The notes beneath the pieces are model-generated. The model was not told the DNA's origin. It did no database searches and saw nothing but the letters and a program-made list of their open reading frames with translations. A DNA stretch of 48,509 nt from Thermaurantimonas aggregans (GTDB lineage Bacteria; Bacteroidota; Bacteroidia; Flavobacteriales; Schleiferiaceae): NCBI RefSeq assembly GCF_003851885.1, contig NZ_BHZE01000021.1, forward strand, positions 1 through 48,509. The letters run 5' to 3'. A program made the position numbers and the translations under genes. Of this stretch, positions 38,153 through 48,509 are shown piece by piece; the first letter of the stretch is position 1, and each line of letters starts with the position of its first letter.

Positions 38153-38368
38153 GCGTGAGGGATAGAAGCGGATATGAGCCGCAGCAGGTGGGCATACGGC
38201 ACACTTGGCGAGGCTGGCTGGCCCGTAGGGCAGACAACGCAGCCAAGGTGTGGTAAGCTATTGCTTACTTACTGGTGTACAGGATGTGCCGTGCCCACGT
38301 GCAAGGCGAATATGAGCGGATAGCCCGACCCAGACGAAGGTGCCGAAGGCACCTTGTCTGGGGCACGC
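38153..38368 (+). repeat. Structured-RNA-like repeat, copy A
   Basis: Helices read 5' to 3': P1 GCGTG (38153-38157) with CACGC (38364-38368). P2 GCGG/CCGC (38168-38171, 38179-38182). P3 GTGGGC-AT-ACGGCACA (38188-38203) with TGTGCCGT-GCCCAC (38285-38298), leaving a two-base bulge. P4 CTTGG/CCAAG (38204-38208, 38243-38247). P5 GCCC/GGGC. P6 is a 15-bp hairpin 38329-38362 with one bulged G and a GAA loop. Compared with copy B there is a 36-base insertion (38248-38284) containing a TAAGC/GCTTA hairpin. It sits between rodA and fabH, both on the other strand. No coding role is evident. Confidence 0.8.
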
Positions 38369-38388
38369 CCAAAAAAAAATCGAGAGTG

Positions 38389-39645
38389 TTACAAAATTTC
38401 GGTTCGGTAGGTATCAAGGCGAAGGAGGATGAAAATCATCATAGAGAAGGCCAGCATCGATGATCCACCGGAACTGATGAAGGGCAAGGGAATACCTATT
38501 ACGGGGAATAGGCCAATGGTCATTGCAATATTTACGGCAAAGTGGAAAAAGAGAATGCTGGCTACCGAATAGGCAAAGATGCGTGCATAGGCGAGTTTTT
38601 GGCGTTCGGCGAGGACGAGTATGCGGTAAATAAAGAGTAGAAAAATGGTGATGAAGGTGAAAGAGCCTACAAAGCCCCACTCTTCGCCTATGGTACAGAA
38701 GATAAAATCGGTTTGCTGCTCGGGCACAAAGTCGTACTTAGTCTGTGTGCCTTGGAGGAATCCTTTACCCCAGAAACCGCCAGAGCCGATGGCTATCATG
38801 CTTTGGTGGGTATTGTAGCCGATGCCTTTTGGGTCGTGGGCTTTGCCGAGCATGATGTTGATGCGGTTGCGATGTCTGTCTTCCAACAGATTGTAAAAGG
38901 CAAAGTCAACGGATTGGACGAAGAGAACTACTATGGCAGTGACTCCGAGTGTGGTAATCCATACAGCTCGGCTTCTTCGCCAGAGTATGGCGACAAATAG
39001 ACCAAAGCCTCCCAAGACGAGCGATAGAATAAGTGGGTCAATTACTAAAGCCAAGATAAAAAATACGGCTAGGGCTAAAGCGATGAGGACAAAGTAAATG
39101 GATAATCCCTCGCGGTAAAAGACCAGCAAGAAAGAGCTGAATACTACGGTACTACCTAAGTCGGGTTGAGGCAGAATGAGCAGTGCAGGTATAGCAACGA
39201 TAAGCGTGGCGAGTAGTACTTTTTTCTTGAAATTCTTTTTGGTGGCTGAACCCAAGACGGTAGCTACCATCATGGCAGTTGAGAGCTTAGCGAATTCGCC
39301 GGGCTGAAGGCTAAAGGCACCAATCTGAAACCACGAACGGGCGCCGGAAATTTTAGCCCCAAAAAACAACACCGCTACAAGTAGAATCAGAGTGAGTAGG
39401 TAGAACGGAAAAGACAAGGGCTCGATGAGTCGGCCTTCGATGCTGAGTATTAAAAGTCCGATAATGGTAGAGGCTACTATGAAGAGCAATTGTTTGTTGT
39501 AATTGAGCGAGAGATTGGTAAGGGAAAACGTCTCGGGATTGTACACGGCAGCCAGTACGCTGATAAAGCCAATAAAGACCAGTAGGTAATATAACGAAAG
39601 TACAGAAAGGTCGATGCCCTCGAAAATCGATTCCCTCTTTCTCAT
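38389..39645 (-). CDS. rodA: Rod-shape peptidoglycan glycosyltransferase RodA
   Basis: This 418-residue SEDS-family polymerase of the elongasome has about ten transmembrane helices. Family motifs include GARSWFQIGAFSLQPGEFAK (around 105-125), PDLGSTVV, and GFVGS near the HQSMIAIGSGGFWGKGF region. The C-terminal PFISSGGSSML is the SEDS signature. It takes lipid II and works with the transpeptidase MrdA, whose gene overlaps it by 4 bases upstream. It is the last gene of the purH-mre-mrdA-rodA run. Its stop lies 20 bases from repeat copy A. Confidence 0.96.
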   Translation of the reverse strand: MRKRESIFEGIDLSVLSLYYLLVFIGFISVLAAVYNPETFSLTNLSLNYNKQLLFIVASTIIGLLILSIEGRLIEPLSFPFYLLTLILLVAVLFFGAKISGARSWFQIGAFSLQPGEFAKLSTAMMVATVLGSATKKNFKKKVLLATLIVAIPALLILPQPDLGSTVVFSSFLLVFYREGLSIYFVLIALALAVFFILALVIDPLILSLVLGGFGLFVAILWRRSRAVWITTLGVTAIVVLFVQSVDFAFYNLLEDRHRNRINIMLGKAHDPKGIGYNTHQSMIAIGSGGFWGKGFLQGTQTKYDFVPEQQTDFIFCTIGEEWGFVGSFTFITIFLLFIYRILVLAERQKLAYARIFAYSVASILFFHFAVNIAMTIGLFPVIGIPLPFISSGGSSMLAFSMMIFILLRLDTYRTEIL

Positions 39646-48183: not shown

Positions 48184-48365
48184 GCGTGAGGGATAGAAGC
48201 GGATATGAGCCGCAGCGGGTGGGCATACGGCACACTGGGAGCGGCTGGCTGGTCTGTAAAGACAGACAACGCAACCCAGATGTGCCGTGCCCACGTGCAA
48301 GGCGAATATGAGCGGATAGCCCGACCCAGACGAAGGTGCCGCAGGCACTGTCGGCTGGGGCACGC
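48184..48365 (+). repeat. Structured-RNA-like repeat, copy B
   Basis: The helices match copy A: P1 GCGTG/CACGC (48184-48188, 48361-48365). P3 GTGGGC-AT-ACGGCACA (48219-48234) with TGTGCCGT-GCCCAC (48281-48294). P4 CTGGG/CCCAG (48235-48239, 48275-48279). P5 GTCT-GTAA-AGAC (48252-48263). A 3' hairpin has CCCAG/CTGGG and GTGCC/GGCAC. P4 and P5 differ in sequence from copy A yet stay paired. It lies 5' of the PLP-enzyme gene on the opposite strand and is followed by a same-strand terminator. The rest of the 467-base end region (48043-48183 and 48422-48509) shows no gene. Confidence 0.8.
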
Positions 48366-48390
48366 CCAAATAAGTAAAGAAAATAAAAAG

Positions 48391-48421
48391 AAGCTGTCCT
48401 AAAAGAGGGCAGCTTTTTTTT
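48391..48421 (+). terminator. Intrinsic terminator downstream of repeat copy B
   Basis: AAGCTGTCCT (48391-48400) and AGGGCAGCTT (48406-48415) form a 10-bp stem with a 5-base loop, followed by a run of eight T. The one imperfect pair is U-G on the plus strand but A-C on the minus strand, favouring plus-strand termination. An A-rich left flank means weak bidirectional use remains possible. Confidence 0.8.
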
Positions 48422-48509
48422 ATCAGTTTTTAAATGGTATTTAATGTTACAAAAAATGAATTAGACTTAAAGCAGGTTTTTGGTAGTGATATTTCAAAAA
48501 ATTGATTTT

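Follow-up and report, generated by a model that had tools for sequence, protein, structure and literature searches.

The window, i.e., the whole 48,509-nt stretch of Thermaurantimonas aggregans DNA that was analyzed, carries two separate repeat elements on its + strand, namely, element A at 38153–38370 (218 nt) and element B at 48184–48367 (184 nt). Both were located where the first-pass annotation had placed them, with the ends lying slightly further out and including the CCC that closes each element. Both elements are of type I, which comprises branched copies of 171–261 nt. In element A, the closing helix P1 is formed by GCGTG (38153–38157) and CACGC (38364–38368), the latter being followed by CC and an A-tract; in element B, GCGTG lies at 48184–48188 and CACGC at 48361–48365, followed by CC and AAAT. 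Helix P2 consists of a 5′ arm, GGGATAGAAGCGGATATGAGCC (38159–38180), and a 3′ arm, GGCGAATATGAGCGGATAGCCC (38305–38326), in element A, and of 48190–48211 and 48301–48322 in element B, and these arms hold a Flavo-1-like core in both elements. The apical domain of element A (38181–38304, 124 nt) is built of P3–P5 and an additional hairpin insert and replaces the short loop of Flavo-1, and that of element B (48212–48300, 89 nt) is built of P3–P5. A GA junction and the terminal hairpin P6, which differs from copy to copy, occupy 38327–38363 in element A and 48323–48360 in element B. Element A is adjoined by a run of nine A (38371–38379), which reads as a T-tract along the neighboring rodA-like gene with its stop codon at 38389; this is the favored kind of junction among the copies. 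At 48390–48509, the window holds the end of a highly repeated sequence that begins with a terminator-like hairpin and has 27 near-identical matches in the same genome, mostly at contig ends; it probably represents an insertion sequence that expanded recently and interrupts the assembly.

Elements A and B have long blocks in common, one of 75 nt (92% identity) and one of 70 nt (99% identity). The compensatory differences that the first-pass annotation had described between the two elements were confirmed, P4 being CTTGG/CCAAG in A and CTGGG/CCCAG in B, and P5 being GCCC/GGGC in A and GTCT/AGAC in B; the AT bulge and the closing GCGTG/CACGC pair were found as described. The words ATATGAGC and AGCGGATA, which had been read as a hint of internal pseudo-symmetry, are present, but they represent opposite arms of a single helix, P2, of which the internal loops are G/A-rich.

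When folded with short flanks, elements A and B showed z-scores of −6.65 and −5.83, respectively, and none of 200 shuffles was as stable in either case; the opposite strand of B also gave a good fold (z −4.59). The order of the scaffold is P1 (5 bp), a single A, P2, a short link, hairpin P6, the 3′ strand of P1, CC, and then usually an A-rich stretch. Covariation was determined from a fold alignment (A1) of 24 of 33 cores from three genomes, with nine cores carrying long inserts excluded: the genome of the window (G000; 2.67 Mb in 57 contigs), a congener (G001; 70% complete), and a member of another genus of the same family (G014). In this alignment, 97.8% of 642 cells were paired, and both sides had changed in 16 of the 27 pairs (68 cells, which are not independent events because the rows are related). 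None of 500 shuffles equaled the observed covariation on any of five measures, and pairing fell to 29–46% in controls with slid partners. Likewise, for a 14-row alignment of relatives, none of 500 shuffles was as high on any of the five measures. Among the loci that carry the frame, P1 occurs as GCGTG/CACGC, GCGTT/AACGC, GCGCA/TGCGC, GCGCC/GGCGC, GCATT/AATGC, CCATG/CATGG, and GCAAA/TTTGC, with both strands changing in step. The covariation is thus real across the 24 copies, the two window elements taken alone being thin evidence of it. One strand can form a three-way junction composed of a covarying P1, a Flavo-1-type P2 arm, and a freely varying P6, and this fold is under selection. The first-pass annotation had moved from compensatory change to selection on an RNA. 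Selection on the fold stands, but an RNA gene does not follow from it: compensatory changes would equally arise if the element folded as single-stranded DNA.

Calculated with RNA energies, the + strand was the more stable of the two strands in 37 of 39 elements, and the mean difference was −8.65 kcal/mol (composition shuffles: −3.78 and 75%). With DNA energies, for which no control set was run, it was more stable in 39 of 39. The non-Watson–Crick pairs on the + strand comprised 17 G·U vs 7 A·C. These values point to the + strand as the one predicted to fold, as RNA or as single-stranded DNA equally.

A covariance-model search for further copies, as the first-pass annotation had proposed, yielded many, both in G000 and in its relatives. 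R1, a model of the long form built from the 24 cores of the three genomes, identified 22 copies of its type in G000, 4 in G001, and 25 in G014, and its matches were found in at least 5 of 296 genomes of the order, all within the family of the window (Schleiferiaceae), with up to 11 candidates scored in each genome. A DNA search of G000 gave 44 pieces; the 5′ word with up to three mismatches was found at 25 sites (control 0), and the 3′ end word GGRCACGCCCAA at 49 sites (control 0). The wider family in G000 may accordingly comprise up to 49 copies, judged by this end word. Thirty of these 49 matches were retrieved, and 29 could be assigned to a class; L337 is a lone word without the frame. Other subfamilies in G000 kept P1, P6, and the end word and differed in the P2 arm, which is a ladder of GAAG loops in type II (L315, L317, and L336) and another arm in the GGTGCC type (L312, L322, and L331). 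Since copies of the same genome keep P1 and P6 with different arms, the P2 arms look exchangeable. P6 is expanded in L002 and L003 of G000 and in L314 and L318; L002 holds a tandem of a unit of approximately 41 bp, and the ends of L314 and L318 run into hairpin expansions. Two copies with no recognizable 3′ end (L045 and L048) were excluded from the junction, context, and fold counts, and L057 was excluded from the context counts.

The first-pass annotation had offered Flavo-1 (RF01705) as a candidate family. In the whole window, no Rfam family gave a match at its gathering cut-off (42 bits for Flavo-1), element A gave no Flavo-1 match even at E up to 5, and no other Rfam family showed anything relevant above threshold at A or B. 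Flavo-1 matches were found in 16 of 60 genomes of the order, 14 of them over the cut-off, and there was none in G000 or G014; a per-genome Flavo-1 count of 65 means at least 65. The order of helices and internal loops in the P2 core equaled that of Flavo-1, both by eye and by model alignment. In a search of 296 genomes of the phylum, the window word AGCGGATAGCCCG was matched 101 times in 65 of them, with 13 of the matches in G000, compared with 14 matches for the reversed control. Among 29 other loci of the order or class from this search, the upstream frame was present in 22 and was accompanied by a perfect P1 partner in 19; with a narrower pattern, the values were 20 and 17. The Rfam Flavo-1 model scored 10 of 20 framed loci above the gathering score and 7 below it, these 20 having been picked from 30 fetched loci by the presence of the frame.

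A second model, R2, was built from the rows of the 14-row alignment, which are 14 of 17 candidate loci and lie outside the family of the window. In the window, only elements A and B were credible matches of R2 (E 9.4e-12 and 3.9e-12, respectively, scores that are raised because the R2 seeds were found by a 13-nt window word), and the next match had an E of 2.8. R2 also matched six of six classical Flavo-1 loci, which were not chosen by the word, at E 4.7e-8 to 2.7e-5 (two over part of the model), together with some copies having quite different middles. R2 missed 7 of 38 given sources (L030, L045, L048, L062, L070, L082, and L322; two are G014 copies), and R1 matched none of the six Flavo-1 loci. 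A, B, and Flavo-1 thus form one superfamily on the strength of R2 and of intermediate forms. The earlier guess therefore held as to kinship, as one model unites them, but not as to membership in the Rfam family, since A and B lie below its threshold.

Among 20 word sites fetched from other classes, two were elements, both in one genome (G553) and both Flavo-1 over the Rfam cut-off. In the other 18, the frame together with a P1 partner was missing, and several of them were mutual near-repeats resembling coding sequence, which may account for the word excess in other classes. A spread throughout the phylum was rejected because these 18 look like chance or coding matches. The frame occurs in the class of the window and in one genome beyond it.

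The 2010 description of Flavo-1 lists it among probable RNAs, in Bacteroidetes, and as probably not cis-regulatory (PMC2864571). In a 2021 transcriptome study of F. psychrophilum, several 5′ transcribed regions coincide with Flavo-1 matches, the matches lie indistinctly in sense or antisense with many outside transcribed regions, and no clue to function is given (PMC9723704). A 2022 review treats Flavo-1 under the heading of the most abundant small RNAs (PMC9029176). No description of the long form was found by sequence words or topic in the literature covered, which leaves out most subscription journals.

The copies are dispersed and were amplified lineage by lineage. In a tree of 11 of the 22 G000 copies, 14 of the 25 G014 copies, and three G001 copies, the G000 copies formed one clade (100/99) and the G014 copies another (100/100), while the three G001 copies did not form one clade; gene conversion could partly explain the clustering by genome. 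Two G000 copies differed at 2 of 222 sites, and their 200-nt flanks aligned at scores of only 16 and 23 (values without a shuffled control). The site of element A is empty in the congener, where the rodA-like and FabH alignments are 67 bp apart on CALFUW010000040.1 (taken as contig 40 of G001), compared with a gap of 516 bp in the window. This is the only empty site with both sides available, and as the gap in the window exceeds the element, the junction is not readable exactly. At eight G000 sites with an orthologous neighbor in 60 G001 contigs, a word scan showed no element; such a scan would miss diverged types, and at some of the eight sites the neighbor lies 545–715 nt from the element. 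Lack of further copies and lack of covariation, two outcomes that the first-pass annotation had set against its own proposal, did not occur, while the dispersal pattern comes close to the third, a mobile-DNA repeat.

A preference was evident at the junctions, where, in the reading direction of the adjoining gene, the element starts directly after a T-tract. In G000 (n = 25), the tract ended in ATTT in 11 cases and in TTTT in 10, and the T fraction was 0.78 in the last 8 nt vs 0.25 upstream; in G014 (n = 10), the values were 0.60 and 0.21. In relatives outside the lineage, the A-rich flank was retained (0.61 vs 0.33 in 21 rows, in which one locus occurs twice and three loci are of one family). 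Several copies owe their A-tract to a host terminator, of which it is the T-tract. Terminator-like hairpins preceded 15 of 25 G000 copies, compared with 5.2 in shuffles, whereas G014 showed 1 of 10, compared with 0.9 expected. Consequently, insertion strictly after terminators was rejected, as the excess is confined to G000, and the T-tract alone was kept.

Neighboring open reading frames were called heuristically and not taken from annotation. For 35 of the 44 copies of G000, G001, and G014 together, the right-hand gene lay on the opposite strand and was directed at the element, at a distance of 9–162 nt (median 37 nt); in a second, overlapping set with other subtypes, an opposite-strand gene end stood beside the element in 22 of 29. 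As a rule for the superfamily, this orientation bias was rejected because it was seen in only 5 of 21 rows outside the lineage (again with one locus twice and three of the same family). Neighboring proteins were scanned for 30 of 48, and 26 had Pfam families, which were varied; EPSP synthase and carboxyl transferase each occurred twice, and no transposase, integrase, or reverse transcriptase was present among the 30. Three promoter words were not enriched on either side of 38 copies. No duplication was evident by eye in 39 junctions with both ends, and terminal pairing amounted to only approximately 5 bp.

Genes for two kinds of mobilizing enzymes were searched for. The Y1 transposase family (PF01797) had no match in G000 or G001, and the reverse transcriptase family RVT_1 (PF00078) had none in G000, G014, or the incomplete G001; a reverse transcriptase was accordingly rejected as a mobilizer present in these genomes. 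G014 has one Y1 gene, flanked by CAACGATTAAAATCGTTG hairpins; at its locus (L189, 1240–2110), it adjoins a partial element, which lies where a putative PhoH-like gene ends. In genome G068, a Y1-family (RAYT-like) gene lies between inverted copies of another repeat, CCCGATAGCGCGGATTTGCAATCCGTGCCAT (L194). A RAYT/Y1 protein as the present mobilizer was rejected, as G000 has none and the Y1 genes of G014 and G068 sit among other repeats. Elsewhere, Y1 genes of G004 (L190) and G002 (L193) are surrounded by sub-threshold Acido-Lenti-1 matches, and from these positions Acido-Lenti-1 may be the REP of such Y1 transposases. In 15 genomes searched for Y1, the four with at least 29 Flavo-1 matches (G026, G068, G076, and G077) were all Y1-positive; among genomes free of Flavo-1, G015, G027, and G069 had no Y1 match and G008 had three. 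Since G000 gave no match to Y1 or to reverse transcriptase, another kind of mobilizer, or one since lost, is needed.

Taken together, we consider A and B, with a probability of roughly 0.6, to be copies of a folded mobile repeat that belongs to the Flavo-1 superfamily, is dispersed through the genome, and is non-autonomous. Mobility is the inferred part of this reading: the behavior reads as that of mobile DNA because of the genome-specific clades, the empty site, the near-identical copies elsewhere, the varied neighbors, and the T-rich junction. The folded strand, either single-stranded DNA or an RNA copy, would be recognized by a mobilizing protein supplied in trans and would then be inserted beside T-rich tracts. 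Covariation would be kept since only foldable copies keep spreading, and not since each copy regulates its neighbor. The route through single-stranded DNA is preferred over that through RNA because the search for reverse transcriptase genes gave none in G000, in G014, or in the incomplete G001, G000 and G014 being the genomes richest in long-form copies among those searched; this preference is a guess. More tentatively, Flavo-1 itself might be no RNA gene family at all and instead the compact form of a group of structure-selected mobile elements having a three-way-junction scaffold and exchangeable arms, with at least three arm types in G000. A protein other than a reverse transcriptase or a Y1 transposase of known Pfam type would move these elements in trans, and they would be inserted at T-tracts beside genes.

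The orientation bias within the lineage is also compatible with a function at the 3′ ends of mRNAs, where dispersed copies would protect the transcript end or insulate it from read-through and the fold would be kept for that reason. The 35 of 44 copies behind an opposite-strand stop codon, the 22 of 29 in the overlapping set, and the terminator-like hairpins of G000 agree with such a role. It nevertheless seems doubtful, as G014 shows no terminator excess, the orientation bias does not extend to relatives outside the lineage, the best-folding strand is opposite to the mRNA of that gene in 37 of 39 elements, and no element was seen at the eight partly checked orthologous sites. A multicopy family of trans-acting or regulatory RNA genes, as read by the first-pass annotation, would account for the strong covariation, the conserved loop words, and the excess of G·U over A·C on the + strand. 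However, tens of copies amplified genome by genome are hard to reconcile with such genes, and the transcription of Flavo-1 follows no consistent strand in the transcriptome study, although several 5′ regions coincide with it (PMC9723704). We regard this reading as quite improbable, and the varied neighbors, the lack of promoter words, the genome-specific amplification, and the empty orthologous site fit a mobile repeat instead.

Two further explanations agree with mobility and differ in the enzyme. Transposition by Y1 (HUH) enzymes uses single-stranded folds and leaves no obvious target duplication, so the folding of the elements and the absence of an evident duplication would suit a REP-like repeat moved by a Y1 transposase that has since been lost from G000. 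The joint occurrence of Y1 with abundant Flavo-1 in four genomes, and the absence of both from three, speaks for it; yet G000, which has near-identical copies, has no Y1 gene, nor has G001, G008 carries Y1 with no Flavo-1, and the inspected Y1 genes sit among other repeats, which leaves this origin improbable. A retroelement, the RNA of which is copied into T-rich sites by a reverse transcriptase, would explain the T-tract junction with its fixed end and the A-rich sequence that follows the folded strand at its 3′ end, and group IIC introns are known to insert after terminators. It is very improbable, however, as RVT_1 has no match in the three genomes and the A-tract of several copies is simply the T-tract of the host terminator.

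If Flavo-1 is an arm of a mobile three-way-junction repeat, many copies annotated as small RNAs would be mobile repeats. The extended model with P1, P6, and exchangeable arms recovers members that escape Rfam, and what moves the copies becomes a testable question.

Among known systems, REP elements are intergenic, folding sequences that occur in tens of copies and in genome-specific families, and the A/B type resembles the REP/RAYT system in all of these properties. It differs in being much longer and branched, not a single palindrome of the 20–40 bp given for REP elements (PMC3733652), and in the absence of any Y1 match from G000 and its congener. Similarly, it departs from repeats mobilized by a reverse transcriptase, such as group II introns, as PF00078 had no match in G000, G001, or G014. 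With MITEs, of which an IS982-derived MITE of Cardinium is an example (PMC9769881), the A/B type shares its short length, non-autonomous nature, mostly intergenic position, and many copies; it differs in that its ends pair over only approximately 5 bp and in its internal covarying structure, and no parental insertion sequence of the MITE kind was found in a search that covered Y1 and reverse transcriptase. As a multicopy, intergenic element of Bacteroidota, it resembles Flavo-1 in that relatives carry many copies per genome and in the P2 arm, which by eye comprises 3 bp, a 1×1 mismatch, 2 bp, a 3×3 loop, 2 bp, a loop, and a helix. Unlike Flavo-1, A and B score below the Rfam threshold and carry P1, the hairpin P6, and an apical domain of 89–124 nt, all absent from the 76-position Rfam model. 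The long form with a large P3–P5 apical domain on P2, present in the lineage of the window, is new.
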